From the IMG/VR virus record IMGVR_UViG_3300027467_000666, positions 1-28,334 of that record: DNA of 28,334 bases. One strand, written 5' to 3'. Positions 3,575 through 28,255 of the stretch are shown here, in pieces (the first letter of the stretch is position 1; every line of letters starts with the position of its first letter). The stretch comes from a virus. Made by a program: the position numbers and the translations under genes. The notes beneath the pieces were generated by a model that was not told the DNA's origin, did no database searches, and worked only from the letters and a program-made list of their open reading frames with translations.

Positions 3575-3732
3575 GCTACGCACAGACATACGAGGAGTTG
3601 ACTTCCGAGCAACTCAGCCAGCGGTACCAGCTAGAGCTTCGACGGCTCCGCGAGATCGATCAAGAGGAAGCACGGGTACGAATGCGCGTCCTCGCGATCG
3701 AGAAGGAACTGAAGAGCCGGGGGTTGAACTGA
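3571..3732 (+). CDS. Unknown coiled-coil protein, 53 aa
   Basis: Starts at ATG 3571, overlapping the previous TGA, with GGAGGGTGG as ribosome site, and ends TGA 3730-3732 overlapping the thyX start. After a short Y-A-Q-T-Y-E-E-L-T lead, nearly the whole protein is a highly charged helix with Leu/Ile/Val at heptad-like spacing (L-R-R-L-R-E-I-D then V-R-M-R-V-L-A-I-E-K-E-L). It probably forms a coiled coil. No family recognised. The tight coupling on both sides supports translation. Confidence 0.6.
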   Translation: MSYAQTYEELTSEQLSQRYQLELRRLREIDQEEARVRMRVLAIEKELKSRGLN

Positions 3733-4562
3733 TGGCGTTTAGCGCAAAGATTCTCGCCGACTCGCTCCATCCAAACGGCGTGAAACGCTTAACGACGTTC
3801 GAGATTACGTTCCCTAGGTGCATCCTCGCCGAGTTCAACACCCACCGGATGATCAGCCGGAACGCGGCAAGCAGTCGCGCCATCCCGGTCGAGAAGCTCG
3901 TTGAGATGGTGAAAGATGACCCGTTCATCCCTGAGTTCCGAGCGAACCAAAAAGGGATGCAAGCGGGAGACTTGCTACCCGAGAACAACGCTGAAGCGGC
4001 TCGTGTTGCGTGGAAGCTCGCACTCGATGAGGCTCTAACGAACGCACTGACACTGAGCGCAATCGGCGTTCACAAGCAGTACGCGAACCGTTTACTCGAA
4101 CCGTTCATGTGGGTGACGGTGATCGCGACAGCGACCGAGTGGACGAACTTCCTCGCGCTTCGTTGCGCTGAGGATGCAGAGCCGTCCTTCCAGCGGATCG
4201 CCCGAATGATGCTCGATCTTTACCGGACGAGCCAGCCGAAACAACTGCAGTCGGGCGACTGGCATTTGCCGATGATCGACGAGGACGAAGCGAAGGACTG
4301 GACCGAGGAAATGCAGCTCATGGTCTCGGTCGGTCGTTGCGCCCGCGTGTCCTATTTGACGCACGACGGCAAGCGCGATCCGATCGCGGACATGGACCTG
4401 CACGACAGGCTCATGACGTCGGGTCATTGGTCGCCGTTCGAACACCAGGCGATGGCCGTGACGAGGACTGCTTTCATCTCAGGAAACTTCCACGGTTTCG
4501 AGCAGTACCGCAAAATGTTCCAAGGCGAAAACGCGACCGATCTTCCGGTGGTGGAGCGATGA
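3732..4562 (+). CDS. thyX: FAD-dependent thymidylate synthase, ThyX-like
   Basis: A 276-residue protein expected to make dTMP from dUMP with folate, FAD and NADPH, supplying thymidylate for phage DNA. The segment T-H-R-M-I-S-R-N-A-A-S-S-R at 37-49 corresponds to the ThyX signature R-H-R-x2-S-x-N-x2-S-x-R, with Thr replacing the first Arg. G-V-H-K-Q-Y-A-N-R-L-L-E-P at 112-124 and N-F-L-A-L-R at 139-144 match the downstream helices of classical ThyX. H-W-S-P-F-E-H at 232-238 matches the FAD-contacting motif, which in classical enzymes comes before the signature, so motif order is permuted here. ATG 3732 overlaps the previous stop; the end overlaps the HTH gene. Confidence 0.88.
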   Translation: MAFSAKILADSLHPNGVKRLTTFEITFPRCILAEFNTHRMISRNAASSRAIPVEKLVEMVKDDPFIPEFRANQKGMQAGDLLPENNAEAARVAWKLALDEALTNALTLSAIGVHKQYANRLLEPFMWVTVIATATEWTNFLALRCAEDAEPSFQRIARMMLDLYRTSQPKQLQSGDWHLPMIDEDEAKDWTEEMQLMVSVGRCARVSYLTHDGKRDPIADMDLHDRLMTSGHWSPFEHQAMAVTRTAFISGNFHGFEQYRKMFQGENATDLPVVER

Positions 4563-4783
4563 TCAACGAATCGCTTGGGCTCGTCCATGAGCGCCCGCCC
4601 CTTATGATGTCCATCCCAAGGGCGGCAAAGGAACTTGGCGTCAGTGCCTCGATGGTAGAGACGCTCATCCGCGACAAGCTGATCAGACCATGCCAGATGA
4701 GAACTGGCGGCGAGAGGCGGATCAGTTATCCCGAGCTTCTTCGCTACGTGGCGGAGCGGGATGCCGCCGGAATAGAAAGGTAG
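4559..4783 (+). CDS. Xis/MerR-like helix-turn-helix protein (possible excisionase)
   Basis: A 74-residue DNA-binding protein starting at ATG 4559 (overlap with the thyX TGA, GGTGGTGGAG upstream). Residues 17-65 form a winged helix-turn-helix of the excisionase/MerR type: S-I-P-R-A-A-K-E-L-G-V-S at 18-29, then S-M-V-E-T-L-I-R-D-K-L-I-R, a turn with G-G-E-R-R-I-S, and a closing helix. It lies ten bases upstream of the integrase, the usual place for a recombination directionality factor, so excisionase is the best guess. A transcription regulator of the early operon is the alternative. A perfect inverted repeat begins two bases after its stop and could be its binding site. Confidence 0.75.
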   Translation: MINESLGLVHERPPLMMSIPRAAKELGVSASMVETLIRDKLIRPCQMRTGGERRISYPELLRYVAERDAAGIER

Positions 4784-4784
4784 A

Positions 4785-4816
4785 GTCCCCTGCATGAGAG
4801 CACCGATGCAGGGGAC
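4785..4816 (+). promoter_or_regulatory. Perfect 11-bp inverted repeat over the integrase start codons
   Basis: The arms GTCCCCTGCAT (4785-4795) and ATGCAGGGGAC (4806-4816) are exact reverse complements separated by ten bases. Both candidate integrase starts, ATG 4794 and ATG 4806, begin inside the arms. In RNA this would be a stable GC-rich hairpin sequestering initiation; in DNA it is a good palindromic operator for a dimeric regulator such as the preceding HTH protein. Either reading implies control of integrase output. Which applies cannot be decided from sequence. Confidence 0.65.
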
Positions 4817-5831
4817 CAAGCTCTCCGATGGCAGATGGCGCGTCGTCGTCGTTTTGACCGGAGAGCGGGGGGAGAAAATCAGGAAGGGGTTCGAGAGGCG
4901 GACGCAGAAACTAGCGCAAGACGCCGCCCTCGAATTCCTGCGGGACAACGGCCGGCAAGTGGTGGACCCGACGTGCGGCACCGTGTCAAAGCTCGTCGAG
5001 CTGGTGCAGCTCGATCTCTGGAAACACCTGTCGCCCAACACGAAGAAGAACTACACCTATTACATTGATATGTTCCTGGCCGATCATGGCGAACTGTTGG
5101 TCGATGAGATCACGCCACCGCTGATCACGAGCTATCTGAAACGCTACAGCGCCAAGAGCAAGAGGACGATGGACGAGCACGTCAAGGTGCTGAAGTCGGT
5201 GTTCGGCTATGCGGCATCGGATCTAGGCTGGATCGATCGAAGCCCGGTAGAGGACGCAAGAAAGCCAAAGACCTCCGGCAAGACGACTGACTGGCCCGTC
5301 CTGACCAGAGCGCAGTTCGACAAGATTCTGCCGCACTTGCCAGAGCCGTACCATCTTTTCTACCGTCTGCTCGCCGAGACCGGAGCCAGACCCAGCGAGG
5401 CGTGGGGGGTCGATACAGAGGAACGACTCGAGTTCATCCAGGACGTGTGGTGGTTCGTCGTCAAGAGGGGCAAGACCGAAGCCTCGACACGCAGAGTCCC
5501 GATCCCCGACGCCCTGGCGCGTGACCTTCAGGCGGCAGGGAAGTTCCCGTTCTCCTCGTTCGGCAAGCTGGTCCAACCGGCCAAGCACCTTCGCGATGTC
5601 TGGGAGACGGCAATGGAAGCGGCACAGATTCCGTACACCCGCCCCTACGAAGTGAGGGCGATGCGGATCAACGAGTGGCGAAGGATGGCACTACCGGGTC
5701 TCGTTCGGCGCACGATGGTAGGCCATACGTCCGAGCGGACCACCAACGATTGGTACGACCACGTCGATGCGGTCGAGGTGCTGAAGGCTTTAGGTCTTCG
5801 ATCCGTCAACGCGAAAGACGAACCGGAATGA
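4794..5831 (+). CDS. int: Tyrosine recombinase (phage integrase)
   Basis: A 345-residue integrase. Residues 6-50 resemble the AP2-like arm-binding domain (G-x-W-R-V-V-V-V then K-x-F-x-T/R-x-x-x-A). Residues 63-160 form the core-binding SAM-like domain (S-P-N-T-K-K-N-Y-T-Y-Y-I near 80). The catalytic domain has R199 in T-G-A-R-P-S-E-A, Lys 224/227 in the beta-hairpin, R288, V-G-H at 309-311 and the nucleophile Y321 in D-W-Y-D-H. The first His of the H-x-x-R box is Tyr (Y285-E-V-R288). ATG 4794 is given, but ATG 4806 is equally possible with GAGAG upstream; neither has a strong ribosome site. attP lies 74 bases downstream, so this enzyme should catalyse integration into a tRNA-Ala gene. Confidence 0.93.
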   Translation: MRAPMQGTKLSDGRWRVVVVLTGERGEKIRKGFERRTQKLAQDAALEFLRDNGRQVVDPTCGTVSKLVELVQLDLWKHLSPNTKKNYTYYIDMFLADHGELLVDEITPPLITSYLKRYSAKSKRTMDEHVKVLKSVFGYAASDLGWIDRSPVEDARKPKTSGKTTDWPVLTRAQFDKILPHLPEPYHLFYRLLAETGARPSEAWGVDTEERLEFIQDVWWFVVKRGKTEASTRRVPIPDALARDLQAAGKFPFSSFGKLVQPAKHLRDVWETAMEAAQIPYTRPYEVRAMRINEWRRMALPGLVRRTMVGHTSERTTNDWYDHVDAVEVLKALGLRSVNAKDEPE

Positions 5832-5904: not shown

Positions 5905-5953
5905 TGGTGGAGGCAAGGGGACTCGAACCCCTAACCCCCTGCTTGCAAAGCAG
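5905..5953 (-). other. attP core: 3' half of tRNA-Ala(UGC)
   Basis: On the minus strand this reads as the right half of a tRNA: anticodon stem CTGC/GCAG (5939-5942 and 5950-5953) closing a seven-base loop TTTGCAA with anticodon TGC, variable region, a perfect T arm (AGGGG 5916-5920 with CCCCT 5928-5932 around the seven-base T-loop TTCGAGT), acceptor strand TGCCTCC (5909-5915), discriminator A and CCA (5905-5907). No D arm or 5' acceptor strand follows, and the base next to the anticodon stem already breaks the fifth pair, so the identity with a host tRNA probably ends at 5953. This is the classical layout of a phage attP that restores the host tRNA gene on integration. Crossover would fall in the anticodon loop. 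Confidence 0.9.
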
Positions 5954-5969
5954 TTTTGGGTTCATTCCA

Positions 5970-5978
5970 CCCCACACT
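5970..5978 (-). repeat. Inverted copy of the AGTGTGGGG repeat
   Basis: CCCCACACT at 5970-5978 is the exact reverse complement of the 9-mer found directly at 5849, 6026 and 6036. It lies 17 bases beyond the attP core. A weaker copy with two mismatches is at 5992-6000. An additional arm-type or Xis site is the likely reading. Confidence 0.5.
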
Positions 5979-13298: not shown

Positions 13299-14843
13299 TT
13301 AGAACCTCGTCGGCGAATTTCCGAGCCGACCGAACGCGAGCTCGTTCGCGCCGTACATCTCCCGCTTGATCGCGTCGACCAACGCGAACACCTGCCGCTC
13401 GATCGCGCCGCCGCCCGTCGGAGTGCCCTTCAGCACCTTCGCGACGTTCACCGGCGACATCGCCTGCGACCCGATCGTGCCGCCGCCGAGGATCCGCTGA
13501 TCGAGCTGCAGCATCTCCTTCGTGTTCGATGCGATCTCCCTAAGGAAAGAGGTCTGATCGCTCTCGTCGAAAGCCTTTTCTAGCGCGTCCGCTTCCTTCT
13601 CCGCGTCCTTCTCGGCCTTCTTGTCCTTCGCCATCGCGCGTTCGCCCGCCATCTGCGCGAGGCCGCCCATATCCAAGCCGCCTTCGGGCTTCTGGCCCGC
13701 CTTCGCCATCCGACGCCGACCGAGCTCCATGTCGGCGAGAATGTTCGCCTTGTTGGCGTCGAACGTGTCGTTGTAGCCCGCGCCCTCGAACGCCTGGCCG
13801 ATCATCGAGAACTTCCATAGCGGACCCAGGATCGGCGACACCATCTCGCCAAGGATCTTCATCCCCTTGATGAACTGCGCCAGCATGTCGATCGCCGTCT
13901 TGATCCCCGCGACGATGTTCACGAACACGCCCTCGATGCCGGTCGGGCCGTCCGTCCCCATGTTGAAGAGCTCCGCGACGCTTTCCCCGAGCGACTGGAA
14001 CACGCCGCCTTCGCTCGCGATCTCGACCACCGACCCGAGCGCCTCGGCCATCGGACGAAGCGCCACGTTGATCGCCTCTCCCGCCGAGATCGTCGCGAAG
14101 TTGAACGCGTCCCCGAGGTTGTCGAAGGCGTTGCGCGTGCCGCCGGCGACCCGCTCCTGCTCCTTGAGAACCATCGTGATTGAGGCGAGCACCGCCGTCG
14201 CCGTGACGCCCATTTTCTTGAGCTCTTCGGTGTCGGAGGTCCCGAACGCGTCCTTGAGGATCTTCGCCGCCGGAATCCCCGCTTCCATCAGCTGCAGGAC
14301 CTCTTCGCCCTGCAGGAACGGCTTGTTCGCGATCTGGCTCACCGCCATCATCACCCGGTCGAACTGCTCCTTCCCGCCGCCGGCGCGCGCGTTCGCGTTG
14401 CCGAACTGCTTGATCAGCTCTTCCGCGAACCCGGACTGAACGCCCGAGTTCCGAAGCATCGTGTACGCCTTCACCGACTCTTCGAAGCCGAGGCCCGGCA
14501 TCCGCGCGATCTGCTTCATCCGCTCGATCGCCTTCGCCGCATTGTCCGCGGATCCTTCCACCGCGACCAGCGCCATCTTCATCGACTCGAAGTTCGCCGC
14601 CGCCTGGGAAGCGCCCCCGACGATCTTGTTCACCGCTACCGCCGCCGCACTGATCGCCGCCACCGCCGCCGTGATCGCGATCGCCGTTCGGTTGTACGCG
14701 TGCCCAACCGACTTCGCCGCCTGCCCCGCGGTCGAGAACGCCCCCGCGGTCGCCTTCAACGAGCCCTGCACCCGCTGGGCCTTTCCGCTGAATTGGTCCT
14801 GAAGTTGGAACCGGGTGATCAACGTATCTGCGACGGTAGCCAT
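13299..14843 (-). CDS. Tail tape measure protein
   Basis: A 514-residue protein that sets tail length and occupies the tube lumen. The N-terminal 260 residues match the tape-measure N-terminal domain: hydrophobic Ala/Ile-rich segment at about 53-80, F-E-S-M-K-M-A-L-V-A-V-E-G-S then A-R-M-P-G-L-G-F-E-E-S-V, G-G-G-K-E-Q-F-D-R-V-M-M-A, G-E-E-V-L-Q-L-M-E-A-G-I-P. A charged coiled coil (A-K-D-K-K-A-E-K-D-A-E-K) and a short C-terminal region follow. At about 0.15 nm per residue it predicts a tail near 77 nm. ATG 14843 has AAAAGGA upstream. It is separated from its chaperone gene by an opposite-strand gene. Confidence 0.92.
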   Translation of the reverse strand: MATVADTLITRFQLQDQFSGKAQRVQGSLKATAGAFSTAGQAAKSVGHAYNRTAIAITAAVAAISAAAVAVNKIVGGASQAAANFESMKMALVAVEGSADNAAKAIERMKQIARMPGLGFEESVKAYTMLRNSGVQSGFAEELIKQFGNANARAGGGKEQFDRVMMAVSQIANKPFLQGEEVLQLMEAGIPAAKILKDAFGTSDTEELKKMGVTATAVLASITMVLKEQERVAGGTRNAFDNLGDAFNFATISAGEAINVALRPMAEALGSVVEIASEGGVFQSLGESVAELFNMGTDGPTGIEGVFVNIVAGIKTAIDMLAQFIKGMKILGEMVSPILGPLWKFSMIGQAFEGAGYNDTFDANKANILADMELGRRRMAKAGQKPEGGLDMGGLAQMAGERAMAKDKKAEKDAEKEADALEKAFDESDQTSFLREIASNTKEMLQLDQRILGGGTIGSQAMSPVNVAKVLKGTPTGGGAIERQVFALVDAIKREMYGANELAFGRLGNSPTRF

Positions 14844-14848
14844 ATAAT
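14843..14848 (+). promoter_or_regulatory. TATAAT box for the opposite-strand zinc-ribbon gene
   Basis: A perfect TATAAT lies on the + strand six bases before the GTG at 14855, overlapping the start region of the tape-measure gene on the other strand. No clear -35 is seen. The spacing would place the RNA start at the GTG, giving a leaderless message, the same arrangement as at 6055-6066. Confidence 0.4.
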
Positions 14849-14854
14849 CCTTTT

Positions 14855-15256
14855 GTGGTTCCTTTCGTTTTCACTCCGGCAGATCAGATGCAACCTGTTT
14901 ATTGCATCGGGTGCCGAACGCACATCCCGCTGGCGGTTTCGAACGCCAACAAGGGTTACTGCCCAACGTGCGTGCCGCCGCCGAAGGTCGTCCCCGTGGT
15001 CGACCCGCCCAAGCACGCTTACTGCCCGCAGTGCCAGTCGATCGAGCTGGAAGACATCGTCCACCGCGAACCGACCTCGGCGCGGGCGATCTGGTACACC
15101 GGGGTCGCGACCACCATCTTCTCCTTCTTCACCTGTCTCTGGATCCTGCTGGCGGTCACGATCCCGATCGCCCTCGTCGGCATCTCGCTCCCCTGGTCGA
15201 AGGTCACCGGGACGAGCCGAAGGTGCACCGCATGCGGCAACCAGTGGCGAATTTAG
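14855..15256 (+). CDS. Membrane-anchored zinc-ribbon protein, LITAF-like layout (moron)
   Basis: A 133-residue protein encoded against the late operon, between tape measure and chaperone. Four C-x-x-C knuckles are visible: C17/C20, C36/C39, C57/C60 and C124/C127. The first two make one zinc ribbon; the third and fourth bracket a hydrophobic segment at 79-113, giving knuckle-membrane-knuckle as in LITAF-type domains, where the hydrophobic helix inserts into a membrane face. Such Cys spacing is very unlikely in a shadow frame. GTG 14855 fits a leaderless start; ATG 14888 (122 aa) is possible but has no ribosome site. Its TAG overlaps the TAA of the convergent chaperone fusion by two bases. Function unknown; host envelope alteration or superinfection exclusion is plausible. 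Confidence 0.8.
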   Translation: MVPFVFTPADQMQPVYCIGCRTHIPLAVSNANKGYCPTCVPPPKVVPVVDPPKHAYCPQCQSIELEDIVHREPTSARAIWYTGVATTIFSFFTCLWILLAVTIPIALVGISLPWSKVTGTSRRCTACGNQWRI

Positions 15257-15944
15257 AGCCCCATCATCACGAGGGGCCACATCGGGCCGGCGTGCTTCAT
15301 CAGCTCCTGCCGCTCTTCGAACTTGATGCGCCGAAGCGCGATCACCGAAGGCAAGGCGTCTTCCTGCTCGGGGGTCAGGAAGTCGGGGTGCTTGCCGAAC
15401 GCCTCGAGCGACGCTTCTAACCGCTCTCGGTATCGTTCGTCGCGCTTGAGCCTTTTCCCTCGAGCTCTTCCACCGCGCGCATCGCGTGCACGTAGCACGA
15501 TTCGAGCCCTTCATCGATCTGCCGATTCAAGTGGATCATCAGATCGGGCGCGGTCAAGATGCGGCACGCCGCATCGAGCGGGATCTTCGGCTCTTGGCTC
15601 ACCGTGTGCAAGAGGTGCGCCATCATCGCCTCGGTCGCGTCTTGAGGCAAGTGGTCCTTGAACGGATGGATCGACCATTGGGCCGTCCCCTTCGCCGGGA
15701 GCGACGCGTACCACTTGGCAGCGGCCTTCTCCCAAGCCTTCCGCTCCGACACCCGGCGGAACGGCTTACAGACGACCTTGCGACCGTCCGGGAACCAGAT
15801 ATCGAAACTCTCCTTCGGCGCGTACCGGGCGAGCACCGCATCGACGTCGAACTCGGCCGCGGCCGGCGCGGTGGTCGAAACCTCCGCACCGGCCTTTTGC
15901 GCCTCTCGGTTCACCGCCGAGACCGTCCGAGGGTTAAGCCCCAT
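15253..15944 (-). CDS. Tail assembly chaperone G-T fusion by -1 frameshift
   Basis: A second open frame (from the overlap to TAA at 15253-15255) lies in the -1 frame relative to the shorter chaperone and overlaps it by 82 bases. A shift on the G GGA AAA heptamer (15453-15459) joins the first 164 residues to 66 further residues, giving 230 aa. The extension is charged and helical (E-R-L-E-A-S-L-E-A-F-G, then I-A-L-R-R-I-K-F-E-E-R-Q-E-L) and ends W-P-L-V-M-M-G-L. In lambda-like and many other siphoviruses the same locus makes G and G-T, with the T part binding the tape measure. The downstream frame lacks a ribosome site suggesting independent translation. Confidence 0.88.
15408..15459 (-). promoter_or_regulatory. 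-1 ribosomal frameshift site with downstream stem-loop
   Basis: On the minus strand the heptamer G GGA AAA occupies 15459-15453 in exactly the X-XXY-YYZ phase of the chaperone frame. Nine bases later GCGACG (15443-15438) can pair with CGTCGC (15413-15408), and within the loop ACCG (15431-15428) can pair with CGGT (15423-15420) around an AGAG tetraloop. Heptamer, phase and distance match known -1 sites; the structure is inferred by eye. Confidence 0.85.
15417..15944 (-). CDS. Tail assembly chaperone (G-like)
   Basis: A 175-residue protein encoded between major tail protein and tape measure, the standard site of the tail chaperone. It has F-D-I-W-F-P-D-G-R-K-V-V-C-K-P-F-R and K-A-W-E-K-A-A-A-K-W near the middle, then a helical region with E-A-M-M-A-H-L-L-H-T-V and a typical S-C-Y-V-H-A-M-R-A-V-E-E-L ending. 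In siphoviruses this protein, with its frameshift extension, keeps the tape measure soluble and brings tube subunits to it. ATG 15944 overlaps the small gene upstream by eleven bases. Sequence similarity to lambda G itself is not visible; the call rests on position and the frameshift. Confidence 0.82.
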   Translation of the reverse strand: MGLNPRTVSAVNREAQKAGAEVSTTAPAAAEFDVDAVLARYAPKESFDIWFPDGRKVVCKPFRRVSERKAWEKAAAKWYASLPAKGTAQWSIHPFKDHLPQDATEAMMAHLLHTVSQEPKIPLDAACRILTAPDLMIHLNRQIDEGLESCYVHAMRAVEELEGKGSSATNDTESG

Positions 15945-27003: not shown

Positions 27004-27206
27004 CGTTTCTCGATCCGCTCCAATCGGTCGGTCAAATGGTCAACCGCGTTTTTCAGCCCATCCAGCGTGGATTTAAAGTCTGTCAGGAGTTGCGTCAAGG
27101 CTTGACGGTCGCTGTTCCACGCGTTAATCACCGTCCACAGGAGCACTCCCGCGACGAGCGCCCACGGTCCCGATTTGCCTAGCTCGACGAGAAAGCTCTC
27201 TGTCAT
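27000..27206 (-). CDS. Small membrane-plus-coiled-coil protein (BhlA-like, possible holin)
   Basis: A 68-residue protein with one membrane segment at about 13-30 (P-W-A-L-V-A-G-V-L-L-W-T-V-I-N) followed by a charged coiled coil with Leu/Ile heptads, ending R-L-E-R-I-E-K-R. The layout (short N-terminus, one helix after a Gly-Pro-Trp, long amphipathic tail) resembles BhlA/UviB-type holin-like proteins. Other small membrane proteins share this layout. No endolysin gene is adjacent. ATG 27206 overlaps the methyltransferase stop (ATGA). Confidence 0.6.
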   Translation of the reverse strand: MTESFLVELGKSGPWALVAGVLLWTVINAWNSDRQALTQLLTDFKSTLDGLKNAVDHLTDRLERIEKR

Positions 27207-28255
27207 GCGACCTCCAAGCGGTATTGGTCAAACGCTTCAGCAATCCTCTTGTTGGCGATGGCGAGGTACTCAGGCTCCCTTTCTATGCCGATAAACTCCC
27301 TGCTTTCAAGAGCGCAAGCGACTCCCGTCGTTCCGCTTCCCATGAACGGGTCGAGGACTACCGAGCAGACCGGCGAGACGAGACGGACTAGATAGCGCAT
27401 GAGGTCAATCGGCTTGACCGTGGGGTGGTTGTTGAACTCCCCTCTTTCGGAGCGCGAAGCCTTGGGGCAGTAGAAGAACCGGGACCATTCTTTGCCCTCT
27501 CCCGCTTCTTCGTCCATGATGACGTTGGCGGGCCAACGGCCAACATACTCCTTAGGGTCGCCTTGCGTCCCCCGCCTAGCTTCCGCCGTGCCGGGCCTCC
27601 CTAGCCCATTCCCGTGGCAGGCCTTGAAACTCGTGAACGATGCGTGACGGACCTCTTCACCCACCCGGCACCCGTCAATGTTCAGGCCGCCCACTCCATG
27701 CGCCAGCACGTTTGCGGCCACGGTCCCGCATAGCGGCTTCCGCGCCACGCAGATAGGCTCGTGGGCCGGTTTAAGGGCCGTACCCCAGCCGTCCCAGGCT
27801 TTAGCGGCCTCGGTAGCGGGGGCGGTGATGAAGTTGTCCCCCATCATCGCGCCATAAGTGCCAGCATCCTTTCCGGTCCTCTTGCACTGGCTGATTACTT
27901 CGCGTTCCGCGCCTGCCGCCTTGTCGATGGCCTTCGACACGTCCAACGACTTCGGGAAGCCTGACCCGTAGATCCACATGATCTGGTCGCGAATCTCAAA
28001 CTCCGCATCTTCGATGGCCGACGCCATGCGGTGATAGGTCCGGCTCCCGGAAAACGCGAGAAGGTGGCCGCCGGGCTTCAGGACGCGGAGGCATTCCCGC
28101 CACAGTTCGACGGAATAGGCGATCCCGCTAGCGTCCCACGCCTTCCCCATAAACCCAAGTTCATAGGGCGGGTCGGTCACAACCGCGTCAACCGTTTCGG
28201 ACGGGATGCCCTTCAACGCTTCGAGGCAGTCGCCGCCTACTAGGTCGAACCTCAT
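27203..28255 (-). CDS. DNA methyltransferase (N6-adenine/N4-cytosine, beta class)
   Basis: A 350-residue methyltransferase. The catalytic motif D-P-P-Y is at 28-31, and the AdoMet-binding motif D-P-F-M-G-S-G-T-T-G at 302-311, so the catalytic motif precedes the cofactor motif as in beta-class enzymes. H-P-T-V-K-P just before it is the usual motif X segment. The 100-residue stretch in between, with G-G-L-N-I-D-G-C-R-V-G, probably includes the target-recognition part. D-P-P-Y suggests amino methylation of adenine or cytosine; the target is unknown. No restriction enzyme is seen, so protection against host restriction is likely. ATG 28255 overlaps the upstream stop (ATGA). Confidence 0.92.
   Translation of the reverse strand: MRFDLVGGDCLEALKGIPSETVDAVVTDPPYELGFMGKAWDASGIAYSVELWRECLRVLKPGGHLLAFSGSRTYHRMASAIEDAEFEIRDQIMWIYGSGFPKSLDVSKAIDKAAGAEREVISQCKRTGKDAGTYGAMMGDNFITAPATEAAKAWDGWGTALKPAHEPICVARKPLCGTVAANVLAHGVGGLNIDGCRVGEEVRHASFTSFKACHGNGLGRPGTAEARRGTQGDPKEYVGRWPANVIMDEEAGEGKEWSRFFYCPKASRSERGEFNNHPTVKPIDLMRYLVRLVSPVCSVVLDPFMGSGTTGVACALESREFIGIEREPEYLAIANKRIAEAFDQYRLEVA

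Follow-up and report, generated by a model that had tools for sequence, protein, structure and literature searches.

A probably host-derived membrane zinc-ribbon gene beside the tape measure gene of a temperate siphophage, a candidate for superinfection exclusion

A gene for a membrane zinc-ribbon protein runs against the tail operon of a temperate siphophage, in the slot between the tail assembly chaperone and tape measure protein (TMP) genes. The DNA analysed here (the window) is the entire IMG/VR record IMGVR_UViG_3300027467_000666, 28,334 bases long. Sequence comparison is best read as identifying the gene as a host-derived moron, taken from a membrane zinc-ribbon family of Armatimonadota type; the gene, its family, the host phylum, its moron nature and its slot are all well supported. 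The mechanism that we consider best, at slightly better than even probability, is superinfection exclusion at the DNA-entry step by a membrane protein expressed from the prophage. The first-pass annotation had assigned the product an unknown role in the host envelope, and analogy with other phages likely narrows this role to superinfection exclusion.

The window carries a siphophage gene set comprising a tyrosine integrase, terminase, portal, head protease, major head protein, head-tail adaptor and tape measure, and its late genes are encoded on the − strand. Since a tyrosine integrase is encoded, the phage is temperate. The features used below are as follows.

4,794–5,831, + strand: tyrosine integrase (phrog_1 integrase, 2.2e-39)
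13,299–14,843, − strand: TMP gene, 514 aa, divergent neighbour of the membrane gene (Pfam TMP_3, 1.6e-19; PHROG tape-measure families)
14,843–14,848, + strand: TATAAT, −10 box of leaderless type, 6 nt upstream of the GTG, sole TATAAT of the record
14,855–15,256, + strand: membrane zinc-ribbon protein CDS, 133 aa, GTG start (ORF list, codon statistics, homologs)
14,903–14,971, + strand: predicted N-terminal zinc ribbon ZnR1, C17/C20–C36/C39, common to Armatimonadota membrane proteins (alignment)
15,008–15,244, + strand: LITAF-like domain, C57/C60 ribbon, membrane segment and C124/C127 (PF10601, 14.2 bits; family HMM)
15,089–15,199, + strand: hydrophobic, predicted membrane segment, residues 79–115 (hydropathy)
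15,253–15,498, − strand: tail assembly chaperone, T part, −1 frame, convergent with the + strand gene
15,417–15,944, − strand: tail assembly chaperone, G part
15,453–15,459, − strand: slippery heptamer G GGA AAA (GGGAAAA) for the G–T frameshift, in phase (sequence inspection)

The G and T parts of the chaperone gave no family match and are identified by position and frameshift alone.

The + strand gene between the chaperone and TMP genes was found at 14,855–15,256, where the first-pass annotation had placed it. The four C-x-x-C pairs that it had described are C17/C20, C36/C39, C57/C60 and C124/C127, and the hydrophobic run between the last two pairs covers about 37 residues (79–115), close to its figure of 35. 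Both of the overlaps it had reported are present: the TAG stop of the gene (15,254–15,256) overlaps the stop of the chaperone T part (15,253–15,255, − strand), and the TATAAT box overlaps the start codon of the TMP gene (CAT, 14,841–14,843).

Coding statistics confirmed that the gene is real. The GC content by codon position was.54/.52/.83, the signature of the genes of this record, and the codon log-likelihood was +0.25 per codon versus −0.42 ± 0.28 in shadow frames (maximum 0.18, n = 105). The open − strand frame across the same bases scored below zero; consequently, the + strand gene is not an antisense shadow. At least four CxxC pairs together with a membrane segment occurred in only four of 2,460 ORFs of at least 100 aa in the DNA compared (window included), and two of the other three ORFs were Armatimonadota matches to the LITAF profile. 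Homologs align from residue 1 of the window protein (L151, 54% over 39 aa; also L165), which sets the start at the GTG rather than at the ATG at 14,888. A single-sequence structure model, of low confidence (pLDDT 63.8, pTM 0.24), placed a helix at residues 68–100; a PDB sequence search and, with this poor model, a fold search gave no match.

Direct searches for relatives of the window protein were negative in phages, plasmids, viral contigs (2.9 million) and genome contigs, and by tblastn no phage record was matched, HK97 included. Two weak matches, to a PaaD zinc ribbon and to phrog_3845, were both dropped as generic CxxC matches; for the latter, a direct search of the record was negative. 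The LITAF-like domain PF10601 aligned over model positions 3–65 of 70 at 14.2 bits, short of its gathering cut-off of 23.8 bits. The LITAF-like layout proposed in the first-pass annotation is nevertheless correct in kind: the alignment is nearly full length, and Armatimonadota homologs of the protein exceed the cut-off. The likeness lies in the order CxxC, hydrophobic segment, CxxCG; the differences are the sub-cut-off score, a hydrophobic segment of about 37 residues and the extra N-terminal ribbon. The LITAF motif also includes a His before the second knuckle, which the window protein lacks.

The relatives of the terminase large subunit (TerL) include a MAG of Fimbriimonadaceae, a family in the phylum Armatimonadota (59%). 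A PF10601 search of 201 Armatimonadota genomes gave six matches above the cut-off, and the N-terminal ribbon of the window protein is also present in two of them, L131 and L133. A profile built from these two and the window protein had matches in 21 of 291 genomes, among them the full-length homolog L161, which in a pairwise test was 31% identical across 156 columns with an E of 9e-22. In the reverse direction, an HMM of four Armatimonadota proteins, built without the window sequence, retrieved the window ORF from among 8,778 ORFs at E 6.1e-19, although three of the four proteins had come from the profile that included the window. At the domain level both halves were matched (ZnR1, 2e-11; LITAF-like part, i-E 5.8e-7). 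Two of the proteins had first been picked by PF10601 alone, and their common N-terminal ribbon therefore constitutes independent evidence.

Residues D10, P14, Y16, C17, C20, C36 and C39 are invariant in the ZnR1 alignment, and the window protein carries the family signature, D-x3-P-x-Y-C-x2-C...C-x2-C followed by a C-terminal CxxC-TM-CxxCG-x-W. The ZnR1 ribbon alone was detected in 16 of 291 Armatimonadota genomes and in none of 301 from the phylum to which an Anaerolineaceae MAG belongs, a comparison set with no positive control. The Armatimonadota proteins (L161, L131, L133) share the two-part architecture and sequence of the window protein but have a longer, often coiled-coil-like linker, so that the phage form is a short version. 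The homologs L161 and L163 lie away from any recognisable phage gene, and the ancestral role of the family would therefore be a host one, which need not be exclusion. In a more distant ribbon relative from an Armatimonadota genome (L162, 7,327–8,025, −), ZnR1 is joined to a membrane helix and to a C-terminal domain of unknown kind; with an integrase, a possible excisionase and a phage-type methyltransferase nearby, the gene probably belongs to a mobile element.

The closest tail module found, L165, comes from an Armatimonadota MAG, on a contig of 14 kb. Its TMP is 32% identical to that of the window (1e-67), and the gene next to it matches the 773-aa protein of the window (1e-72). The module also includes a gene for a homolog of the membrane protein; it runs opposite to the TMP gene, converging with it from the 3′ side, whereas the window gene lies on the other side. 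The CxxC pairs, on whose conservation in homologous phages the first-pass annotation had made its reading depend, are conserved in this homolog.

The same annotation had suggested an opposite-strand moron and a check of related phages at this site, and the comparison agrees with the suggestion. The slot is empty in L088 and L090 (one related cluster) and holds other genes in L086 and L091, while the opposite-strand homolog of L165 adjoins its TMP gene. In the L086 phage (TMP 26% identical), the slot is occupied by an opposite-strand gene with a single membrane helix (2,479–2,850, −, 123 aa), overlapping the T frame and unrelated to the window gene. A membrane-anchored BamE-domain protein, also unrelated, is encoded in the slot of L091 on the sense strand (4,663–5,190, −), and another lies just after the TMP gene in L087 (3,340–3,906, +). 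Further down the tail operon, L090 (14,653–14,841, −) and L088 (6,624–6,887, −) have a conserved opposite-strand gene for a 62-aa membrane protein. In a broader TMP survey of 289 genomes, too noisy to be read as a slot frequency, most TMP loci had no membrane gene in the slot, and TMP searches of viral contigs yielded nothing new.

The TATAAT box occurs once in the 28-kb record, both strands counted, against 0.7 expected. Sequence inspection found no −35 box and no Shine-Dalgarno sequence at the membrane gene, and a consensus scan returned no sigma-70 promoter and no terminator there; the negative promoter scan is due to the absent −35 box. Among 75 genes considered in the window, L112 (the L086 phage), L091 and L087, only one gene in each had TATAAT or TAGAAT (TAKAAT) no more than 30 nt from its start, and this was always the membrane gene adjoining the TMP gene. 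The motif had been chosen after seeing the window, and the test consists of L112, L091 and L087, not the window. In L091 and L087 the box lies 5–7 nt before the start of the BamE-domain gene. With TANAAT at 3–14 nt, L165 was gained (TACAAT, 7 nt before the ATG) and L112, with its 18 nt, was lost; in L091 the pattern also picked one unrelated gene.

Membrane genes occupy this position in other phages as well. In HK97, the moron gp15 is encoded between gp14 and the tape measure gene. It resembles the window gene in encoding a small membrane protein (predicted in the window), in its place between the G–T chaperone and TMP genes and in its temperate siphophage background. HK97 gp15 differs in being 62 aa long, encoded on the sense strand, devoid of CxxC pairs and without detectable relation to the window protein; superinfection exclusion is proven for gp15, whereas for the window gene it is inferred. 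HK97 gp15 is reportedly of host-family origin (YebO).

In Acinetobacter prophage L101, a protein with the layout CxxCG, membrane segment, CxxCG is encoded directly after the chaperone, and the locus ends before the TMP gene. A search with this protein led to the phages below, which, having been found by searching for ribbons, speak for recurrence and not for frequency. The slot protein of Pseudomonas phage R656 (gp065) combines an Imm_superinfect domain (PF14373, 1.6e-18) with a zinc ribbon; it shares with the window protein the slot and the pairing of membrane segment and ribbon, but it differs in its membrane domain, in having a single compact ribbon that follows the membrane part and in its sense-strand gene. 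Salmonella phage FSL SP-016 and Klebsiella phage Kpn_R1 encode a membrane segment and a zinc ribbon just before the TMP gene. Two further genes occupy other moron sites: in Providencia phage PSTCR8lys a similar gene lies between minor tail proteins, and in Pseudomonas phage PseuP_222 the repressor region holds one with a zinc ribbon. A Pfam search gave no match between PF14373 and the window protein up to E 1, and PADLOC gave no match. During injection, the membrane nuclease SNIPE likewise acts at the tape measure (PMC13190303).

Placement against the sense of the tail operon would put the gene under a control apart from that of the late genes, and the −10 box in front of it may drive a leaderless transcript that would be most useful in the silent prophage. 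The protein would reside in the cytoplasmic membrane, its hydrophobic segment dipping in as a hairpin or in-plane helix. Because zinc ribbons need reduced cysteines, both ribbons are placed in the cytoplasm, where they may close over the membrane segment. There the protein would most likely interfere as the tape measure protein and DNA of an incoming siphophage cross the inner membrane, and related phages would thereby be excluded from the lysogen in the manner of HK97 gp15. This reading argues by analogy, from gene position, membrane character and a temperate way of life, and we hold it to be somewhat more probable than even. Against it, the window protein is homologous neither to gp15 nor to Imm_superinfect. 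The negative PADLOC result, the many TMP loci of the noisy survey with no membrane gene in the slot and the family members away from phage genes also count against it.

The main rival holds that the gene serves lysogenic conversion and affects the host envelope in another way, for example by membrane remodelling or as a modified copy of a host LITAF-like protein. LITAF-type domains generally act at membranes, and Armatimonadota genomes encode members of the family as host proteins that carry varied additions. However, phage copies of the family and unrelated membrane genes cluster at the TMP gene, and the slot-mates in other phages are exclusion-type proteins; we regard this explanation as unlikely, though deserving some weight. 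A passenger, weakly selected in an insertion-tolerant slot and doing nothing specific for the phage, would fit the varied slot contents, among them a HicAB pair and a DUF4468 lipoprotein between the chaperone and TMP genes of Acinetobacter phage AM106 (L188, 21,726–22,967). It is improbable given the codon usage, the intact set of eight ligand cysteines and the predominance of membrane proteins in the slot among relatives, each with a nearby −10 box.

It is less probable still that the antisense transcript is the important product, with + strand RNA entering the T frame and damping chaperone or TMP expression in the prophage. The putative promoter and the stop do overlap both neighbours, and no terminator was found after the gene, but the reading frame is conserved as protein over great distances and the slot membrane gene of L091 lies on the sense strand. 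A chance ORF might be suspected from the lack of phage or plasmid matches and of any close relative in 2.9 million viral contigs; profile homology at E 6e-19 and the coding statistics speak against it, and the window-free profile refutes it, leaving it a negligible probability. Exclusion by a host-derived membrane moron remains the mechanism that we prefer.

More tentatively, and with less than even probability, both flanks of the TMP gene may serve phages of different phyla as a general docking site where membrane genes are swapped in and out that exclude phages at tape-measure-driven DNA entry. With the same reserve, such genes may often be zinc-ribboned and often host-derived, and some may run opposite to the operon from a minimal promoter of leaderless type. 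If this is true, position alone would predict new exclusion proteins, and an excluder kept beside the TMP gene would be linked to the allele on which it acts. None of the papers searched mentions superinfection, zinc ribbon, prophage and tape measure together. The case adds a ZnR1 and LITAF-like family of a phylum that has received little study, and it points to position as a means of finding such proteins. The carriage of DNA through the inner membrane by the tape measure is poorly known, and exclusion proteins targeting that step would serve as probes.

Elsewhere in the window, a tRNA-like piece lies just 3′ of the integrase gene (5,908–5,971; Rfam tRNA 31.6 bits, ARAGORN negative). Its end reads TTCGAGTCCCCTTGCCTCCACCA, and this is probably the attachment site, in a tRNA gene. 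The phage also encodes a thymidylate synthase ThyX (3,732–4,562, +) and a DNA methyltransferase (27,203–28,255, −).
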